Source: Daphnia pulex (Eukaryota > Arthropoda > Branchiopoda > Diplostraca > Daphniidae). Taken from it: 64,000 nt of DNA. The translations under genes and the position numbers were made by a program. The notes beneath the pieces were generated by a model that was given only the letters and a program-made list of their open reading frames with translations, made no database searches and was not told where the DNA came from. The stretch is taken from contig NC_060026.1 in assembly GCF_021134715.1 (NCBI RefSeq), positions 14,375,001-14,439,000 on the forward strand. Reading direction: 5' to 3'. Below, piece after piece: positions 10,195-64,000 of this stretch (within the stretch, counting starts at the first letter, position 1; every line of letters starts with the position of its first letter).

Positions 10195-11454
10195 CTAACT
10201 GTCATCCTTTTTTAACAAATCTTCGATGGCGTACGAAATCTTTTTGCGTTTGACGATGACCGGCGGTGGAGGAGGGACGGCTGGACTAGCACCGGATTCG
10301 GAATCAGTCGCCGTTCGTTTGCTGCTGCAGTCTAATGGCATGGCTGGATCGTAGCTGGATGTCGTTGCGGATGTCGACGGAACAGATAAATCCAGTTGAA
10401 GAATGTTGGGAAACGCATGAGCGGCGGAGGTTGGCTGTGTAGTACTTCCAGATGGCGATAGCATTTGATGGTGTTGCTGCTGTTGTTGCATCGATGCTGA
10501 TTGGTTGCTGATGAACAACTGCTGCATGTGATGGCCTACCATGAGTCCGGGCCATTCCGCCGCCAAAGAACTGGATGCGGAAGCCGCTTCGCGAAGGATT
10601 CGATTAATGGATGAAACGGATGGCACCTGACCGGGATCGCAGAGCCGCTGACTCAGCAGAGCTTCTCGGATCTCTGAAGCGAATAGCGACGGCCTTTCGC
10701 TCTTGAGTCGCAACACTTTCCGCACGACGCTAGGCGTCGCAATCTATTAGCAGAAAAAGCAGTAAAATATTTTACTAGTTAGCAAACGACTGTACCGGTA
10801 AATTCCCACAATCAATTAACGACAATTAACGACCCATTTCTTGTTTTCCGTTCGAATGATTTAGTTTTCGCGCCGGAATGGTTCCGTAACTAACTGCCAC
10901 CTTACAAGTAAACCAACCACCAATTTGACAAGACAAATTGGCGTTCGCTGTTCACTGAATTCCACATTCGAGAAAACGAGGAGAAATTCTCAAAATGAAA
11001 ATTGATGCGAAGGTAAGAAAATGAGTTCGAGCTTATCGGTGCGTTGAAATCACCCAAATAAAATTCCCAAACATTATAGGCTTTTTAAAAGTTATATAGC
11101 TTGTCACGAAATTTAAATTTTTAACCTTATGTTTGTTGTTGACGGCAACCGATCCGGGCCGGATGGACCCCGTTTCGTAAAAGCGGGTCAGTATCTTGGA
11201 GACGCATCCGTGGGAGACTAGAAGCTGCCGCGAGATATCGCACGGACGGACGCCTAACAACGCCAGCTGGACGATCCTTCGACGGACGTAGTCTGGCAGT
11301 GGCCGTCCATTGACGAATACGCCACCCAATTGGTTGACCCCGGCTTGACCTGTTCATATTCCACCAATAATAAGTAAATTCATTTCACGGAAGGTATCAA
11401 TAAATTTAAAAGTTCACTTTTGTTTTGTATTCATTACAGACCTGTATGGGGCAT
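10195..11454 (-). CDS. Poxn: Pox-neuro paired-domain transcription factor
   Basis: Three coding exons: a 13-nt first exon (11454-11442, MPHTG), 11349-11126 and 10743-10195, in frame, about 261 residues. The paired domain starts at residue 5 ([19 protein letters not shown]), continues through [20 protein letters not shown] and [16 protein letters not shown], and resumes after the intron with [14 protein letters not shown] and [10 protein letters not shown]. The opening [14 protein letters not shown] agrees with my memory of Drosophila Poxn. There is no homeodomain, as expected for Poxn. The extreme C-terminus, [13 protein letters not shown], resembles a YSIEELLKK motif near the Drosophila C-terminus. 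The protein is short (Drosophila Poxn is over 400 residues, from memory). In flies Poxn specifies poly-innervated chemosensory organs; the role here is inferred. The exon 2 donor follows NNKHK, where other paired domains carry a GGSK-type linker. Confidence 0.93.
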
Positions 11455-19810: not shown

Positions 19811-22205
19811 ATGAAGTTCGCTTCCAAAACATACATTTATGTTCTTTTTTTCGGGTTTAGTTTAATATTGGTCGATGCTACATCAGAATCATTCAGTGAA
19901 GAGCTTCTCATAAAACCATTACCCACTGGTCATGTGTATTCTTTTTTCCAGTTCACTACAAAGTGGGATGTTGATCCTTCGGAAACTAAACGTGAGCCGG
20001 CTTTATTTTCTTAAGCTTGAATTAAGACAGAAAAAACTAAAAAAACAAACAAATTATTTATATCTTAGTGCAACACTACAACCTGTTTCCGAGATCAATC
20101 GGAGAGATCATACAAAAACATTCTTTGAGAGAACTTCATCTCAGTCTAACACAGAGCTTGTGGCGCACACAGAAATGGGGATACCCAGTAAGATTTGCTG
20201 GTCCTGGTGCAGAAGTTTTTGCTACTTTTCAACCTCATTTGAACAAGTAATATTTTATAAAGTTCAATATTTATCTATTTTTCTTATCATTAAATTGTCT
20301 TTTCATAGTGACGAAGTAGATGGTGCTTGGATTGATCTAGTGAACTCACTGTCTGGCCTTTTCTGCTCCTCTTTCAATTTTGTAACTCTAACAAACACCA
20401 TTCAGCCTATTTGGACCTTTTCTCCAGAGGGTCTGAATTTAGGCGGAACTAATGCTTCTCATCAGCGTTATGCAAACCTGCCCAGAGAAATTGTTTGCAC
20501 TGAAAATCTAACACCATGGAAAAAACTTTTACCCTGCGAAAGCCATGTTGGTTTACTTATCAAATTCCTTAAACTCTATGCACTCTACAATATTTGTTTT
20601 TTGAACAGAGTGGATTGGGTGAACTTTTAAATGCCAAGAACATGTATGACAGCAGTTACCACTCTTTGGCTCTAGATTTGAGGCCCATCTGCAGGGTAAA
20701 ATGTTCTTTTTAAAAACGTCAAGCATGTCTTAACTCTTTTGATTCAAAAGGACAAAAAATGTCAAGAATCGTCCTTGGAACTGAAATTATCGCTGTCTCT
20801 AGTTTCTGAACCAACCGTCCTGCATGGAAATACCTACCACGGTATCAATGCTGACTGGTCCTTCAAAAGTATTTATGGGGCCCATTTATTCTCATCTTGT
20901 CCAAGAGCGACACTTTCGAAGGTTTACATCGACATCACTTCAAACATTGTGAGTACAGCGCTATTGAATCCTTTATTTAGAAAACAAATTTAAAAAGGAT
21001 TGTATAAAAAAACCAGACAAGCACCACACACTGGAACCTGAGGCCAGACCCTGCAGCGATCGTCGTCAATCAGCGGGGAGGTAGTTCAACTCATCTTGCA
21101 GTCTATGATCTCAATGAGGTATCACCTTGGCCCATCAATGTTCGAGCTGCGTACACCAAGAAACTTTCTTATGGAATTATTCCACCACCACTTATCCACG
21201 CTACTCGTTTTGTAGGAGGTAAATTTTCTAATACAAAAGCTCAATCTGACATTTTAAATAATGAGCAATTATTGGCAGGTCATGGGCAAGCTAAAGGAAA
21301 GTTGGTGACTCGAATCCACAACAACTATTACAGCAATGATATAGACATTGTGTTTTTGGAATTGGTGCCGTGGTATTGTCGCGTTTTCCTCCATACATTG
21401 GCATTTAGTAATTCCAAAAACAAACCAGTCGCAATCGGTAATGGCCTTTTAAAATTAATACTTCCATCTGTGGATAAAGCATCAATTTATATTTGAAAAG
21501 ACATACCGCAGAAACTATACTTCAGGCCTGGGCTTGATCGACAGCGACCAAACCACCTCGAATTGCGCCTCACTCTACCTGCCAACTCTGTCACTGAAAT
21601 CGAGTGGGAATTCCAAAAGGGTTTCCTGAAATGGACTGAGTATCCTCCAGACGCTCATCGAGGGTTCGACTTGGGACCAGCTGTGATTTCTGCACTACTA
21701 CCCGTTGCCCGCAACTGGACTGGAATACCTAGACATGTTTCTACTTTCGATGAGAGGTAGATATGAAAAATAAAACGGTATTTTTTAAATAGATTTGCAT
21801 TTAAACCTCATCCGAACTTTCTAGCTGGAACGTTAGCCAGTCCGGTTATTTCGTTCGTGTTCATACCGAGACTTTGGTTGTAGCTATGGCCACCCCTGAT
21901 TTCAGCATGCCCTACAACGTGATCTGCTTAGCTTGTACGGTGGTAGCTTTGGCGTTCGGACCACTCTACAATTTAACCACTAAAAGGCAAGTGAATCTTA
22001 CTATTTAAATTTTATTCAGATTTGTGTAATGATTGGAACGGTACTTCTTAGGTTGGTTGTCAAAGAATCGAGTGGTGGCGGAGGAGGAGGACTGATCTCC
22101 AAATTGAAATCTGTTTTGGGAAAGAAAAACAGCAATCCTGTAGAAGAAGAAGTAGCAGCAGCACCGAAAGCAAAGGTTCTAGCAACTAAGAAGAAAGATG
22201 ATTGA
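19811..22205 (+). CDS. PIGT: GPI transamidase component PIG-T
   Basis: Subunit of the ER complex that cleaves the GPI-attachment signal and transfers the protein to the lipid anchor. Ten exons: 19811-19991, 20069-20246, 20309-20546, 20609-20695, 20751-20948, 21017-21218, 21279-21437, 21501-21756, 21825-21986, 22052-22205; 604 residues. A signal peptide is followed by the luminal family pattern: [42 protein letters not shown]-like [17 protein letters not shown]-type [19 protein letters not shown], and [23 protein letters not shown] over the single TM helix near the C-terminus, then a short basic cytosolic tail. The length is close to human PIGT as I recall it. Intron 9 (21987-22051) uses a GC-AG pair: the donor AAAAG|GCAAGT is the only one that keeps the frame. 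Start ATG is followed directly by the signal peptide. Confidence 0.96.
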
Positions 22206-40701: not shown

Positions 40702-43700
40702 ATGGGAGACGGACCGTTGAGCAGCAAACACGTCACTGATTACCTGAAAGCCAACAGGGGATTCTTGGAACATCACGTGCTGGAACATGTCGATGCCGCC
40801 ACTTTGGAACGTTGGTACATGCGCCGGGTCTGGAGAGAAAAGGCCATCAAGTCGCCAACGGTCGAGAATCCGTCGGAGGAAATGTTGAGCAAGAAGATTA
40901 GCATGTCAAAATGGAAGGTATCAAGTTCAGTATCTTTTTAAGGAAAAATGTTATTGACTTGAAAATGTTTTTGACAGTTCTGTAGGCACACTGATAAGCG
41001 CCAAATGCTGGAAACCCTCATGAATTCCTTATCGACACAGCCGCAACCTGGCAGGATACTATGGGAACTAGCGTGTTGCGTTGCTTCGTCGGTAGGAGCC
41101 GACGGATTCATTCTACATCTCTCGCATCCGCAAACGGGAGGATTCCGCGTCTTTAGAAGGTACTTGCGCTAAATTGATTTGCTCTCGGATCGTTGATTAA
41201 TTAAATTTTCGCAACAGCTGCGACATAGAAGCCGATATCGACAATGGAATTTTCAACTTGAGAATGGACCAAGAATTTGGCGGATATGATAACGATGAAG
41301 AGACAACTGGACCCGGCGACAATTTCTACTCCCTGTCAAAGAGTGAGAATCATACGGTCGCTTCTTACGTAGCTAAAAATCGCCACACGATAACAGTGCG
41401 GGATATTCGTCGCCCGGATTCTAGATTCAAGGACGGAAGTATCTGTTTAAAGGTGAGGAATTATTTCTGAAATTAAAATCTAGCGCCAGACATTTTAACA
41501 GTTGATTTCAATACTTTAATTAGGAAGGAGGCATTCACATTCTAGGAGCGCCAGTCGTACAAAATGATGGGACCCTGACTGGAGTCATTGAACTCTACAG
41601 GTGACTTATTATTAAGTTCTTGCAATTGAAATGTTAAAGTTTGACTTTTTCACAAGTGCAGACGATCTACGGAACATTACAAATCTTCTCGAGGGCCATT
41701 CGCACAAGATGACGAAGAAATCGTTAGTAGTTTTCTAGTTTGGGGCGGGATCGCTTTGCACTACGCGGACATGTACCACGCATTGGCCAATCAGCGCAAT
41801 TTGCATCAGTTTCTATTAACCGTCGTTAAATCCATTTTCCAGGTAAAATTTTACCATCAGAAGGAAAATCACTTTACCTAACACCCAAATTTTGCACAGG
41901 ATATGATTAGCATGGATACGGTGATTGCCAAAGTAATGACTTTTGCGCAAAAATTAGTGGACGCCGATCGGGCATCTCTTTTTCTTGTGGACCACAAATC
42001 CAACGAACTTTACGCTCGCATTTTCGATATGGGCGACGGAGTAGGTGATGGACAGACCCCTGCAGCTGCCCAAGAAATTCGTTTTCCTATCGGTACTGGC
42101 ATTGCCGGCCAAGTAGCCGTCACCGGGAAGGTAAACTAATTTCGTGGAATTTCGTTGAAAATGAACAACTACAAAATAATTTTATCATTAGGTTTTAAAT
42201 ATCCCTGACGCTTATTTGGACCCGAGATTTAACCGAGCTGTTGACCACCAAACGGGTTATCATACGACATCTATTCTGTGCATGCCCATATTTATACAAG
42301 GGCAGGTGATTGGGGTTATGCAAATGGTCAACAAGCATCACGGAACATTTAGCGCTGAAGACGAAGAATCGTTTGAACTTTTCGCCGTTTATTGCGGATT
42401 GGCCCTGCACCACGCCAAGTTGTACGACCGGATCAGAGTGTCGGAGCAAAAGTACCGCGTCACGCTCGAAGTCCTTTCGTATCACAATTGCTGTACAGAG
42501 GGTGAATTCGAAGCGTTGCAGCAACTGGATGGCAATGCCGGCGTGACGGAATCAGAAGAATCTGAAACTCAGTCGGTTCAACAGCAAGTCACGACGACTG
42601 TTGTCGGCTTGGACCAGTTTTGGTTCAGCGCCTTCAGCATCAACGACATGGAGAAAGTCCACAACGCCGTCTACATGTTTGTCGATTTGTTTGGGTTGAA
42701 CCAGTTCGAGCGGGACTCTCTCGTCCGTTTTATGTTGACTGTCCGCAAGAATTACCGGCGCGTCCCCTACCACAACTGGACGCACGGCTTCGCTGTGGCC
42801 AATTCCATGTACGTGATACTCAAACGGGCGCCGGATGCTTTCAAGCCGCTGGAAGCTGTGGCTCTTTTCGTAAGCGCTCTCTGTCACGATCTCGATCATC
42901 GTGGGAAGAATAATAAATTTATGCTGGATACGGCCTCACCGTTGGCGTCCATTTACACCACGTCGACGATGGAGCATCACCACTTCAATCAAACTGTAAT
43001 CATTTTACAACAGGAAGGCCACAATATTCTGGGCAAACTTAAAAGCGACGAATTCAAAGAGGTCTAACATTCTGCTTAATTTGACATGTTTTTAGTGAAT
43101 TTTATTGATTATTTTTGTTGTACAGGTGTTGAGGAATATCAAACATTGCATTTTGGCCACGGACTTGGCTCTCTTTTTTCCCAATCGAGCCAAATTAGCC
43201 CAAATTGTTGAGAAAGATCAGTTTACCTGGGACAATAAAGATCACAGACTTTTGGTTCAAGCCATAGCCATGACGGGATCGGATTTATGTGCATCTTCAA
43301 AGCCCTGGGATATTCAATCTGAAACGGTATTACATTTTTTGGGTGATTGCTTCAAAAGAATTCATTTATTTAATTATTTCATAAATTATTAGGTTAATGT
43401 AATCTTCCAAGAGTTCTACGAACAAGGAGATGCGGAAAGAAAAGCCGGTCGTGTGCCAATCCCAATGATGGATAGAACTCAACTGCACTTGCAGCCGGAT
43501 TCCCAGGTCGGTTTCATATCAGGAATCTGTATCCCTTGCTATGGTTTACTCTATCGATTGATTCCGGAGACCAAACCTTTACTGGACGGCTGTCAGAGCA
43601 ATTTGGAACGGTGGAAACAACTGGCCAAGGAGAACGAAAATGTTCAATTAAACGGTGTTGTAGAGTCTGATAATGATGGATCGACGTCGGCTAAAGATCC

Positions 43701-53181: not shown

Positions 53182-56100
53182 ATGGTTACTACACAAATGA
53201 GGTGCATCCTCGTTACAGTTTTGGTTGCCGTTTGCTGCAACTGCCAATCGGACAACCCCGGTGGTTCTTCTTCTTGGGAGAAACTGCAAATCTCACCGGA
53301 CCCGTTAAGTTCCATGGAGTACGGCAACTTTCTCGTTGAAATTTACGAACACGCCAATAATCACAAGCCAACGACAACTGCCAGTGAGAAAAAATATTTC
53401 TACTCTCCTCTTGCCCTATTGGACCATAAAAGTGCCTTTGTTACTTACAATAAGTTTACGAAGCAAACAGAGATGAGATTCCGCATTGAAATGTGGAACG
53501 ACAAAGTCCAAAATGAAGTTGTCAAACATTTGAATGAAATGCAAATGGATGGCCATGAAATCAAATCCAATAAAGTGAGAGTCATTCCCTTGGAAAAGGT
53601 CATTCTCGTCAGCAAAAGACCCACAATGGATTATTCGCTATCGCCAGAGTGGACGAATTATGACAAGAGCAAAATCCTTTGGCTTTCTCTGTCGTGTTAT
53701 GACCAGAAAATCTGCGACGAACTGGCCAATGAAATGCGATCCGTTCCCAAACATGCAGACCATTTCAAACTCCTGTACAGTTTGTCATCGCAGACGTCGC
53801 AAACCAAACAGACGACCATCAGCATTGACAGCGTCACTTCCGGTCAAATGGTCTCGACTCTTTTACAGAAATTTGGTGACAAAAAAGAAATTTTTCTGAC
53901 GGCCAACGACGAGAAGAAAATGTTGGCGGAAACGGTCACTAGCATCCGAATGGACACATTTGACGACTACGAGGTCTTGTCTCCGGACACGGAATCCCAA
54001 ATTTTGAGTATTTTAAAAGATTTGCTGGTCACGTCCAGAACGACCATCAAAGAGCAAAGGGATAAAATGTGGGACTCGGTTTTCTGGATTGAGGACAATT
54101 ACCGGCCGGACAAAACGACGAAAACTTTGAACGAAATCATCAACAAACTGGACAAGGAAACTCAAAAGAAATTGTCGGATATGTTTAAAACTCGAGAGAA
54201 TGAAGAAAGAATCCAACACAATTTCGACTCAAACAGTTGGGCTGATGTGGACCGAATAAGTTCAGTCATTTCAGGGAAAATGGCGAACGATTCCGATAGT
54301 TCCCGGCGGGTTGAAATTTTGAAGGAAGACGTGGAAAAGTTATTACAAGAAAGTAGAAATCACGTCGAATGGGACGGAGAAAGATTTGTGCCCAAACCGA
54401 TGCAATTGAGCAGAATCAATTTGGCCAAATTTCGTGATTCTCAATCGTTTCAGGATCGCAACCTCCGTGTCCGTTACACAAGCGCTGAACTATCAGCGCC
54501 AATCAAATTTGTAGAACACGCAGAATTGACCGTCACTGGCGAATGGAACAATTTAAAGGACGAATTCCAAGGTTTTAAATAATTTTTGCAAAAAATTTAA
54601 ATATTGAATTCATTAAATTGAAATTGAATTATTGTAATTTAATTGCAGCCACTACTGAGCTCTTAAACATAACCGTGAACAACTTGGTGAAAATAAATGC
54701 CGAGCTTAGTCATGTGAAGAACAACTTGACTAATAAATTAGAAGGTATTTTGAATTATAGAAGGATTGACAAAAACTGCATTCCAAAACGATGTGCGTTT
54801 GAACAGGGACTAAAAAGGAGTTGGAGAAAACCAAAATCACCTTGGAGGAAACGAGGTCCAATTTATCTACCCAGTTAAATGGTATTTTATTGTTACTTAA
54901 TAGTTACAAAAAATTAAAATGCAACCAAAAAATTTCGCTTTTATAGCAAATTTTAACATTTTTTCAAACAAATACTTTTGCATTTCGTAAGCTACAAGAT
55001 CTTGGATTGATACCTTAAAATTGTGTTCTTTATACACAGAGACTAAGCAGGAGTTGTTGAAAACGAGGCCCGATTTCCTAAAAACCTTTGATGATTTATC
55101 AACAAAATTAAATGGTATTTTATTTTATTTTAAAAAATTTGACAAACTTCAAACGCAAAACCTTTCCAATACATTTAGCAACTAGCAAAGAATTGGCAGA
55201 ATTGAAAACCATGGCCAGAAATTTGTCAACTGAATTCGAAAGTAAATTTTAAGTTGAATGAAATTTTTTTGAAAATTTGATTTAATTTAATTCTGTTTTC
55301 TTTGAATTTATAGTGACTAAAAAGGAGTTGGGGAAAACCAAAATCGACTTGGAGGAAACGAGGACCAATGTTAAGAATTTATCTACACAGTTAAATGGTA
55401 ATTTTGTTGTTTTATTAGAAAATGAGATCAAATCCAAAAACATTTTCATAAATTTAGCAACTAAAAAAGAATTGGCAGAATTGAAAACCAAGACCGGAAA
55501 TTTTTCAACTGAATTCGACAGTAAATTTTAAATTGAATAACAAGTTTTTGAAAAATAATTTGTTTAAATTAAATTCTATTTTCTTTGAATTTATAGAGAC
55601 TAAAAAGGAGTTAGGGAAAACCAAAATCGACTTGGAGGAAACAAGGACCAATGTTAAGAATTTATCTACACAGTTAAATGGTAATTTAATTTTTATATTA
55701 GAAAAAGAGATAAAATCCAAATACCTTTTCATAAATTTAGCGACTAAGAAAGAATTAGCAGAAACGAAAATCACAGCTGGAAATTTCTCAACTGAACTCA
55801 AAGGTTAACCGGGCATTTCTTTAAATATTTAATGCACATTATAATGAAATTATAAATGAAATAATTCGACTATGTAAGCGCATAGCAAATATTAAGCCTT
55901 TTCCTTAACAAAATAGGTTCGAAATATTTTTTTGTTAAAATTTTGTAAGCTTAAAACCTTACGATGAATTTGTTTTTAACTCGATTTAATTGTGGTTTTT
56001 TAAATCACACAGAGACTAAGCAGGATTTGCTGAAAACAAGGGCTGATTTGACAAAAAAAGACGATGATTTGTCAATCAAATTAAAAGGTATTTAACTGCT

Positions 56101-57833
56101 AGATTGAAAAATTATAAAAACCCCAAATGCCAAAACCTTTTCAATGAATTTAGCGACTGAAAAAGAATTGGCAGGATTGAAAACCACGACCGGAAATTTT
56201 TCAACTGAATTCGACAGTAAATTAAAAATTGAATAAAAGTATTTTTAAATAATTTGTTTAAATTTAATTCTGTTTTAAATCTGAATTTATAGGGACTAAA
56301 AAGGATTTGGGGAAAACCAAAATCGACTTGGAGGAAACAAAGAGCAATGTTAAGAATTTATCTACACAGTTAAATGGTAATTTTATTGTTAAATTAGAAA
56401 ATGAGATATAATCCAAGTACATTTTTATAAATTTAGCGACTGAAAAACAATTAGCAGAAACGAAAATCACAGCCGGAAATTTGTCAACTGAACTCAAAGG
56501 TTAAACTGAAATTTCTTTAAATATTGAATGCACATTATGTTGAACTTAAAAATTAGGTAATTCGACTATATAAGTGCATTAATAAATATCAAACATTTTC
56601 CTTAACAAAATACGTTCGAAATTTTTTTTATAAATTTTGTAAGCTTAATACCTAAAGTTGAATTTGTTTTGAACTCGATTTAATTATTTTTCTTTATCAC
56701 ACACAGAGACTAAGCAGGATTTGCTGAAAACGAGGACTGATTTAACCAATAAAGACGATGATTTGTCAACAAAAATAAAAGGTATTTTAATGCTAGATTG
56801 CGAAATTGGAAAAAGCCCAAATGCAAAAACCTTTTCAATGAATTTGGTGACTGAAAAGTGAAAAAATAGAGTCGACTTTTTCGGCTACATTTGCGACCAA
56901 AGGTAGCCGGAAAAAACCTCAATAGAATTTGTACCAACTAATTTTTTTTTAAATTTGCTTGTGTATATCGATTGCGTAACGATTAGAACACGAACTTAAA
57001 GTCGCCGAGGAAAATCTGAGTACAGTGAAAGGTAGGTCTAGAATTTATTTCTTGAATTTATTAATTGTTTTAATTTTTAATATAATCCAATGAAATGGTC
57101 TAGAAATTTTCTATGTTTTGGGAATTACAACAAATTTGAGCACAACGAGAACGGTCGTTGGTCAAATGCCAACCTCGTGTGCAGATCTGGAGCGAAATGG
57201 ACAAAAAGTCAATGGATTCTTTTTGGTAAAGGGATCGAAAAAGATGGAAACGGTTTACTGTAACTTTTATCCTAATCAAACTGGTATGAAATGTTGAAGT
57301 TTCTTGTTTATTGATTCCCTAATTAAATTAGTCGAAATCTTTTGTTTACAGCCAAGCAAAAATGGATTGGATACGCCGACGTCAAATCGGCGCCCGTCCA
57401 TTTCTACGTCCAGAGAAATTCTTCATTTGACACAAAAGACACTCCGCTTCCGTTCGATTTGGTGCGGGTGAACGAGGGAAATGCCATGAATTTGATAACG
57501 GGGAAATTCACGGCACCGCAACCGGGAACTTATTTTTTCTCATTCGCGGCAGTGGTGCGTCTTTCATCTTCATCAACTTTTGTTGATTTTTATTCTCATC
57601 TTTATTTGAACGGGAATCCAATCGGGTCGAGTAAAGTTTACGAGCATAAAAGCCCCGGTGATCAATGGAATCCGTTGACCCTCCAGTCGACGCTGAACTT
57701 GAAAAAAGGAGATCAACTCTGGGTGCAGAATTGGTATCGTGATGATTCAGCCTCGACTTTGTATGACGGCGGTAACCGCTACACCCATTTCACGGGTTTC
57801 TTGTTGGAGGAGGAAATTTTCGACTCCCTTTGA
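53182..57833 (+). CDS. Secreted modular protein with coiled-coil exon array and C-terminal C1q domain
   Basis: Seventeen exons (53182-54571; 54649-54744; 54807-54881; 55040-55114; 55179-55241; 55314-55397; 55458-55520; 55597-55680; 55741-55803; 56013-56087; 56154-56216; 56293-56376; 56437-56499; 56707-56781; 56987-57031; 57104-57283; 57352-57833) join to 1019 residues. A signal peptide (CILVTVLVAVCC) precedes a 440-residue domain I do not recognise, starting EIYEHANNHKPT and FYSPLALLDHKSAF. Then come short heptad-like coiled-coil units, a Cys motif (PTSCADLERNGQKVNGFF, VYCNFY) like a fibrinogen-type N-terminal hook, and a C1q-like domain (residues about 875-1019; FTAPQPGTYFFSFAAV, LNLKKGDQLWV, FTGFLLEEE). 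Every internal junction is phase 1. If intron 1 is retained the protein stops after FK, giving a 466-residue form without C1q. Role: probably extracellular recognition or adhesion (inference). Confidence 0.85.
54807..56781 (+). repeat. Tandem array of 12 coiled-coil mini-exons
   Basis: Exons of 75, 63 and 84 bp alternate, in three sequence types. Type A (75 bp: 55040, 56013, 56707) reads ETKQELLKTR..DL. Type B (63 bp: 55179, 55458, 55741, 56154, 56437) reads ATKKELAELKT..GNFSTE. Type C (84 bp: 55314, 55597, 56293, related 75-bp form at 54807) reads TKKELGKTKIDLEETRTNV then KNLSTQLN. Flanking intron sequence is repeated too, so whole exon-intron blocks were duplicated. All exons are multiples of 3 and begin and end in phase 1, so any may be skipped without frameshift. 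A 13th unit is broken (listed separately). Confidence 0.88.
56848..56880 (+). pseudogene. Degenerate type-B mini-exon
   Basis: GGTGACTGAAAAG at about 56846 matches the start of type-B exons (AGCGACTGAAAAAGAATTGG), but the acceptor AG has become GG, part of the middle is lost and the frame runs into TGA at once. It marks the end of the duplicated block, after exon 56707-56781, and is skipped in the gene model. Confidence 0.65.
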
Positions 57834-62936: not shown

Positions 62937-64000
62937 ATGGGAATTTGGTTGTCATGGAAACTGATACTAGTTGCGTCGATTCTTTTTCTGACAAGTTTGG
63001 CTTCTTCGGAATCGCCCGACCCTTTAACCGATCCCACCTCATCTGATACTCGCGAGGATAAACCACTGCCGAATAAAATTTCCTCGGTGCAGTTAGGGTC
63101 TGTTTGTGTCAACATTTACGACAGTCAAACAACTTCACGAAATAAGAAAATCTATTTCTACTCGCCGATGGCTCTGCTAAATCACCTGAATGTCGTTTCC
63201 ATTCACAATCAAACGGTCACCCAGGGAATTCTCAGTGCCAGTTTTTCAATTTGGAATCAAGAGGTCAGAAATAAAGTGGTCCAGCACCTTTCCCAGCTCC
63301 TCAGTCAACAGATCGAGCCCAGTCAAGTGAAAATTTTTCCTTTCGACAGTGTCAGGCTGACCAGTAAAGTGCAATCTGCTGATTTCTCACTGACAAATGA
63401 GTGGCGCCTGTATGACAATCAGCAGACACTCAGGTTTACCTTGATCTGCCCGACACGGGAAGATTGCGATCAAGTGAAAACTCAAATGCGCAACAGTCCT
63501 GAACAATTTCGACATTTGCAACTTGATTTTAATCCTAAATTGAACGACGGTGCGATGATTTGTTTAAACTAGATTCATAAAAAATCTTACTTTACTTTTG
63601 CATTTCTAGATGATTGTTTCAATGATGAGGTTGGAGTAGCTAAAGAAAACGAATTGCCAGCACAAGTCAAAGGTTTTTAAATGAATTCATTTGGATTCAT
63701 TATCACATACAATTTGATTATGAAATGGCCCTAGTTTTAATAATTTTAATTCAAACATTTTTAGAATTATTGGTAAATCTCGAAGACAAATTTAAGAAAG
63801 AGCTAATCGCCATTAGGGAAGGTAATACACATAAAAATTAATTCATTAAGCGGTATAAGTTAAAATTGTAGGATATATCAATTTTTTAACTTAAAGGTTT
63901 TACTGATAAAAAAGAATTTTTAAAAATCTGTTTACAAATTTCAGAAACAAAAAGGGATTTTGTAGCAACTTCACAGATGCTAGCAGCTAAAATAAAAGTC
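62937..64000 (+). CDS. Second member of the secreted C1q-cluster family, partial at window edge
   Basis: Four exons are visible: 62937-63549, 63610-63672, 63765-63821 and 63945 to the window end. A signal peptide (LILVASILFLTSLASS) is followed by the same N-terminal domain as the gene at 53182: VCVNIYDSQTTSRNKKIYFYSPMALLNHLN aligns with the earlier EIYEH...KYFYSPLALLDHKS, then ASFSIWNQEVRNKVVQHLSQ, DFSLTNEWRLYDN and LICPTREDCDQVKTQMRNSP. The N-terminal exon is only about 204 codons, lacking the second half of the paralogue's domain. Short phase-1 exons follow, again multiples of 3 (63 and 57 bp), with coiled-coil-like translations (ELLVNLEDKFKKELIAIRE; ETKRDFVATSQMLAAKIK). A C1q end is expected beyond the window. 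The ATG directly precedes the signal peptide. Confidence 0.82.

Follow-up and report, generated by a model that had tools for sequence, protein, structure and literature searches.

A C1q-headed gene family of Daphnia pulex with a putative coiled-coil stalk of register-neutral mini-exons

Rods that are encoded by small exons and keep both the reading frame and the register of a repeat are familiar from fibrillar collagen and from the classical stalks of C1q and collectins, and a C1q head can be attached to such a rod. In bivalves, the C1q-like type II proteins consist of a coiled coil followed by a C1q head and form a large clustered family, in which the head is mostly constrained and carries hypervariable sites (PMC6835236). 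Schistosome micro-exon genes, whose products are probably secreted, contain many small symmetric exons that can potentially be skipped in frame (PMC4350168, PMC10526429); these exons, of 3-81 nucleotides (nt) each, account for the greater part of the coding sequence, and the introns between them can reach 5 kb (PMC4350168). In Daphnia itself, 172 D. pulex genes are reported with a C1q InterPro domain (PMC4514973), and a C1q/COLFI gene of D. magna, 11F-21.35, lies near the Pasteuria resistance loci ABC/F and is under long-term balancing selection (PMC11193740). Here we analyze a C1q-headed gene at positions 53182..57833 on the forward strand of a 64,000-nt stretch of D. pulex DNA (NC_060026.1, positions 14,375,001 to 14,439,000, or C10:14375001-14439000 in our contig numbering; hereafter the window). 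We consider it fairly likely that this gene belongs to a family of secreted C1q-headed proteins that have a cassette-built coiled-coil stalk, oligomeric and most likely a trimer; stalk length would be set mainly in the germline, with the exons spliced largely constitutively. A literature search, which covered titles and the openings of abstracts, returned no description of such a stalk in Daphnia.

A reading of the window made from its letters alone (the sequence-only reading) had proposed a 1019-residue frame with a large N-terminal exon, about 13 tiny symmetric exons and a C1q-like terminal exon. Our exon chain reproduced the frame of 1019 residues (1020 codons including the stop), and the order of its parts is exon 1, a stalk of mini-exons (54649-57031), a penultimate exon and a C1q exon. 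The mini-exons numbered 14 rather than about 13, while the rest of their description stood: all are 45-96 nt long, are multiples of three and have phase-1 boundaries. Exon 1 (53182..54571) is an open frame of 463 residues with a conserved N-terminal region and a hydrophobic start that, judged by eye, resembles a signal peptide. It matched no Pfam family above the cut-off, no NCBIfam model and no PDB sequence, and sub-cut-off Pfam hits (CNDH2_C, DUF643, Terminase_6C, HSL_N and others) were put down to chance. The first mini-exon (54649..54744) has 96 nt and encodes 32 amino acids. Those of 75 nt are the second (54807..54881), third (55040..55114), ninth (56013..56087) and thirteenth (56707..56781); those of 63 nt are the fourth (55179..55241, three heptads), sixth (55458..55520), eighth (55741..55803), tenth (56154..56216) and twelfth (56437..56499); and those of 84 nt are the fifth (55314..55397, four heptads), seventh (55597..55680) and eleventh (56293..56376). 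The fifth and seventh are identical at 81 of 84 positions. The fourteenth (56987..57031) has 45 nt and a weak acceptor (8th percentile). The array contains duplicated multi-exon blocks (55303..56579; copies at 55303, 55586 and 56282; repeat families D1 and D3) and a larger repeat unit at 55928 and 56622, with a spacing of 694.

The penultimate exon (57104..57283) bears cysteines within the motif PTSCADL...GFFLVKG...YCNF, which we take to be fibrillar-collagen-C/fibrinogen-like. No COLFI domain was matched by Pfam at E 10 on the 59-residue penultimate piece, a short query. The C1q identity of the terminal exon (57352..57833), which ends in the stop codon and has no internal stop, was borne out by PF00386 (68.4 bits against a cut-off of 23.7), and the PDB sequence relatives of this exon are adiponectin, cerebellin, C1q and collagens X and VIII. 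By this domain, the predicted product is a C1q-domain-containing protein.

On the real window DNA, the exon-chain finder returned 14 exons with a score of 405. When the region was replaced by Markov shuffles (n = 30), 27 shuffles gave no exon and three gave a single exon, and the reverse complement gave none, indicating that the 14-exon array is not a product of chance. The finder in this test was trained on all 144 mini-exons modelled in the family (see below), including those of the window, and a length divisible by three is a condition built into it rather than an independent outcome. When the finder was trained without the window (130 exons), it recovered the same 14 of 14 mini-exons; the same leave-out test recovered 22 of 23 exons in the paralogue g28 and 8 of 8 in g21. 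A 33-nt extra exon (56870-56902) that appeared in the first chain run was discarded as spurious.

The gene has many relatives in the genome (133,188,837 bases in 13 contigs). PF00386 had at least 150 matches (150 scored of 242 candidates), 99 of which, by hand count, lie on contig C10. Exon 1 matched 29 other loci that we examined (L010-L038) at 52-79% identity, many of them in two pieces and three with stops inside the match; these are the loci compared, and further N-terminal matches are listed. From the window, these 29 loci and L001/L054, 31 genes were assembled. Stalks were modelled in the 24 genes in which the penultimate exon could be located, giving 144 mini-exons; g11, g14, g29, g31, g33, g37 and g38, where this anchor was not located, were left out of the stalk counts, and g37 and g38 had yielded two short exons each in the first chain run. 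The number of stalk mini-exons per gene ranged from 2 to 23, the window gene being second longest with 14, and their lengths from 42 to 129 nt, with one of 159 nt. Peptides of two stalk exons matched the genome in 37 and 28 places, respectively. The N-terminal exon also varies in length, from 463 residues here to between 464 and 597 in close paralogues (406 in one that is cut by the limits of its locus).

The modelled stalk looks like a coiled coil built of cassettes. In all five stalks tested among the 24 modelled, the best hydrophobic period was 3.52-3.56, and none of 300 shuffles of each reached the peak; the window stalk, with a period of 3.52, lay above all 300. The observed period falls between those of a pure heptad (3.5) and a hendecad (3.67). 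The lengths of 135 of the 144 exons fit 7a+11b residues, compared with 22 of 40 integers over the same range. Exon lengths predict a mean period of 3.53-3.57, in agreement with that observed. Hydrophobic residues occupy exon position +5 in 133, position -2 in 138 and position -6 in 138 of the 144 exons. A shared core position marks both ends of nearly all mini-exons, so a 7-residue core spacing is expected across junctions; of the possible junctions (ordered pairs), 91 of 91 kept it in the window gene, as did 503 of 586 over the 24 genes. When 4 of the 14 window exons were skipped in silico, the normalised periodicity was 1.45; the full stalk scored 1.28, removal of equally long segments at random places 1.15, removal of random lengths at random places 0.89 and shuffled sequence 0.17. 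The values in the other four genes followed the same order with smaller differences, except that in g28 the skipped stalk scored slightly lower than the full one (0.48 versus 0.52). Skipping would thus alter the length of the stalk with its register largely kept. The sequence-only reading had also supposed that the heptad register could vary between transcripts, and this part did not survive: every window junction stays in register, and the skipped stalks are about equally periodic.

We picture the family as follows. The N-terminal exon would form a conserved base, the C1q head a variable binding part, and the stalk a rod in which each mini-exon supplies one register-neutral coiled-coil cassette. 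Most of these cassettes share one core position at both ends, and their lengths add up from repeats of 7 and 11 residues, so that duplication, loss or skipping of an exon could leave both the reading frame and the coil continuous. Secretion, helix formation and trimerization are all presumed from the predicted protein, and the head would recognize microbes in a lectin-like manner.

Several observations weigh against this picture. When lengths are counted once each, only 14 of 21 distinct lengths fit 7a+11b; the exons share descent, their counts are not independent, and shared descent thus carries much of the 135/144 figure. Segments of the same length as exons but cut at random places kept most of the periodicity (1.15 in the window, versus 1.45 for exon skipping). 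The last stalk exon of the family is nearly neutral, with a ratio of non-synonymous to synonymous substitution rates (omega) of 0.90-0.97 in disjoint pairs, and in the window gene the duplicated exons show no clear excess of conservation over their introns. Some members are damaged: the N-terminal exons of g13 and g36 contain stops, the penultimate exon of g19 is frame-broken and a C1q exon of g13 has a frame break. A single-sequence AlphaFold model of the N-terminal exon was useless (predicted local distance difference test score, pLDDT, 35.6), and that of the C1q part likewise failed (pLDDT 54.0). Finally, the variation of the head described below suggests but does not prove positive selection.

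Compared with the systems introduced above, the predicted protein would work like the secreted bivalve C1q-like type II proteins, with collagen replaced by a coiled coil. In contrast to the six oyster genes of that type described with two exons (PMC6835236), the Daphnia family adds an N-terminal exon of ~450-600 residues and a stalk of 2-23 symmetric mini-exons. Unlike collagen stalks, the Daphnia stalk has no Gly-X-Y repeat (no run of four or more Gly-X-Y was present anywhere in the 1019-residue model), and its repeat appears to be a heptad/hendecad coiled coil. The exon sizes given above, a median intron of 71.5 nt and a first exon that accounts for 463 of the 1019 residues all differ from the micro-exon genes, and by exon size, intron size and coding share the modelled gene falls outside the schistosome-type class, which is restricted to flatworms. 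The D. magna gene 11F-21.35 shares the C1q head and is a suggestive relative; it also has a collagen-C-terminal domain, and neither a stalk nor a mini-exon array forms part of the description drawn on here (PMC11193740). Dscam-type arrays are defined by the mutually exclusive choice of one exon per cluster; in the Daphnia gene, successive exons would encode successive pieces of the stalk, an arrangement that does not suggest mutual exclusion.

Because all 14 mini-exons of the window gene are symmetric and in phase 1, any subset could be skipped without a frameshift, as the sequence-only reading had noted. It is quite unlikely, in our judgment, that somatic combinatorial skipping exploits this property to generate many stalk lengths per gene and thereby receptor diversity within one animal. 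The symmetry and, for the most part, register neutrality of the stalk exons as modelled would favor such a process, but symmetric phase-1 exons are to be expected anyway for many extracellular modules, and a change in stalk length would leave the binding head untouched. Introns of the 24 genes are very short (n = 168; median as above; 131 of 168 no longer than 100 nt), whereas the exons skipped across eukaryotes tend to be short, with weak splice sites and with flanking introns that are longer (PMC6142364). In the Daphnia genes the exons are short as well, but so are the introns. D. pulex does use exon skipping: it accounts for 18-19% in a list of splicing types and, of the splicing changes that respond to copper, makes up the most frequent kind (PMC7318467).

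Splice-site strength in the window gene agrees in part with selective skipping. The donors of its five 63-nt exons (55241, 55520, 55803, 56216 and 56499) and of its 45-nt exon score 5.0-7.3, and the other eight, those of the 75-, 84- and 96-nt exons, score 10.8-11.3. Weak donors were rejected as a family-wide mark of 63-nt exons (p = 0.13 with the window gene and 0.81 without it), which counts against the combinatorial process. Further indirect indications come from broken exons. A frame-blind BLAST search revealed 15 exon-like stretches beyond the 144 modelled exons; each of these has a broken frame, is missing a splice site, is a short fragment or, in g35, falls just under the score cut. Four of the 15 have lost their frame and retain usable acceptors and donors (one in g17, two in g22 and one in g28). 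As the N-terminal and C1q exons of these genes are open, g17, g22 and g28 either skip the broken exons or are dead; production of a head would require skipping of all four. A broader proposal combines these elements: water fleas would have a repertoire of receptors, each with a conserved base joined to a diversifying C1q head by a modular rod of register-neutral coiled-coil cassettes. Rod length would be tuned in the germline, through gain and loss of exons among paralogues and clones, and also in the soma, where exons would be skipped selectively; broken cassettes would be tolerated because they can be skipped. We find this combination distinctly improbable as a whole. The reading that we favor keeps the germline part: stalk length would be set mainly by duplication and loss of exons, with splicing largely constitutive.

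Consistent with a germline origin of length variation, the modelled stalks differ in length between genes, and the 12 closest pairs by synonymous divergence (dS) of the N-terminal exon (0.255-0.349) differ in exon number in 12 of 12 cases. Thus, the arrays would turn over rapidly relative to the N-terminal exon, unless gene conversion homogenises the latter. In disjoint pairs, omega was 0.29-0.31 for the N-terminal exon and 0.64-0.69 for C1q. Within C1q, the ratio of non-synonymous to synonymous differences per site (pN/pS) was 0.36 (0.25-0.48) in the core and 0.98 (0.79-1.20) in variable patches that were picked after the variability had been seen. The C1q rate counts omitted g13, and the first of the two rate analyses also omitted g36. 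On these ratios the base is constrained, and the head comprises a constrained core and freely varying segments. Pairwise omega of the head against the window gene reached 1.97, and sliding-window ratios reached 1.92 in one C1q segment of close pairs, which are not independent of one another. Positive selection on the head was considered and set aside; given the value of 0.98 (0.79-1.20) in disjoint pairs, we claim only a loss of constraint in the patches.

The 3′ end of the window stalk looks eroded. A relic 63-nt mini-exon (~56848..56910; repeat families D3, D5 and D9) has lost its acceptor (GG for AG), has a poor donor (1st percentile) and, by eye, contains an early in-frame stop. Mini-exon 14 resembles the 3′ part of a 66-nt exon of the paralogues, and no counterpart of their usual 105-nt last stalk exon was modelled in the window gene. 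In addition, the penultimate exon lacks 7 nt at its start relative to 20 of the 21 paralogues in which a script located motif and acceptor. The homologous acceptor, 57141, scores -2.2 and is in the wrong phase as a result of these missing 7 nt, so that its use would disrupt the frame. A full-length product hinges on a single weak acceptor, 57104 (score 4.6, 13th percentile). These features raise the alternative that the window copy is decaying and no longer yields a C1q-headed protein. A biased count of private changes at otherwise invariant columns of the N-terminal exon, 9 non-synonymous and 2 synonymous, could likewise reflect relaxed constraint. We nevertheless rate decay as doubtful: all modelled exons are open, the C1q exon included, and the phase-correct acceptor 57104 gives an open frame through to the C1q stop. 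Moreover, omega of the window N-terminal exon against paralogues with dS <0.6 is 0.21-0.33, like that of the family, indicating that any loss of function would be fairly recent.

A role in recognition, which we favor for the head, has to be set against the alternative that the protein is a structural or reproductive component of the extracellular matrix and no immune receptor. C1q heads also occur in the non-immune collagens VIII and X, cerebellins and adiponectin recovered from PDB, and C1q-domain genes of D. pulex are over-represented among those down-regulated under predator cues (PMC4514973). The large clustered family with its variable head and conserved base resembles recognition repertoires instead, and the balancing selection on the D. 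magna C1q gene near the Pasteuria resistance loci (PMC11193740) points in the same direction; we judge the matrix role unlikely. If the cassette model is correct, exon boundaries that keep both the frame and the coiled-coil register would allow the rod to be lengthened or shortened by single exon events, making the stalk a coiled-coil counterpart of collagen exons. Host-parasite genetics is well studied in Daphnia, where the family would then offer a natural system for following how an invertebrate recognition repertoire evolves in both the length of its stalks and the sequence of its heads.

Additional loci were observed during the genome search. At 62937-63572 (+) of the window lies a distant homologue of the N-terminal exon (33% identity over residues 26-199), and stalk-exon matches occur just beyond the window end (C10:14439196-14439294 and 14439519-14439623); a second family member probably starts here and runs past the end of the window. 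The locus L013/L008 (C10:14614838-14622108) apparently has two successive C1q exons, and the domain in the first of them is interrupted by a frame break. Near the C1q gene L002 (C7:388761-392180), no N-terminal match was listed, and candidate phase-1 exons of 63 and 105 nt lie upstream, from which the cassette stalk may extend more widely than this subfamily; L003, L004 and L006, loci of the same kind, had none or one weak candidate exon. At C7:2412283-2437941, four fragment copies of the N-terminal exon with equal scores and one stop each are spaced ~6.09 kb apart, and a fifth, longer copy alongside also has a stop; this is a recent tandem array of damaged members. Evenly spaced C1q matches of equal score at C10:620699-641144 and C10:357089-374068 (three ~10 kb apart and two pairs ~13.2 kb apart) suggest very recent segmental duplication or duplication in the assembly.

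Among 10 open reading frames of the window scanned with Pfam, three gave matches. They are a paired box (PAX) at 10198-10725 on the reverse strand (39.3 bits), a GPI transamidase domain (Gpi16) at 19932-20627 on the forward strand (101.2 bits), and a cyclic nucleotide phosphodiesterase with GAF and PDEase_I domains at 42216-43064 on the forward strand (118.5 bits).

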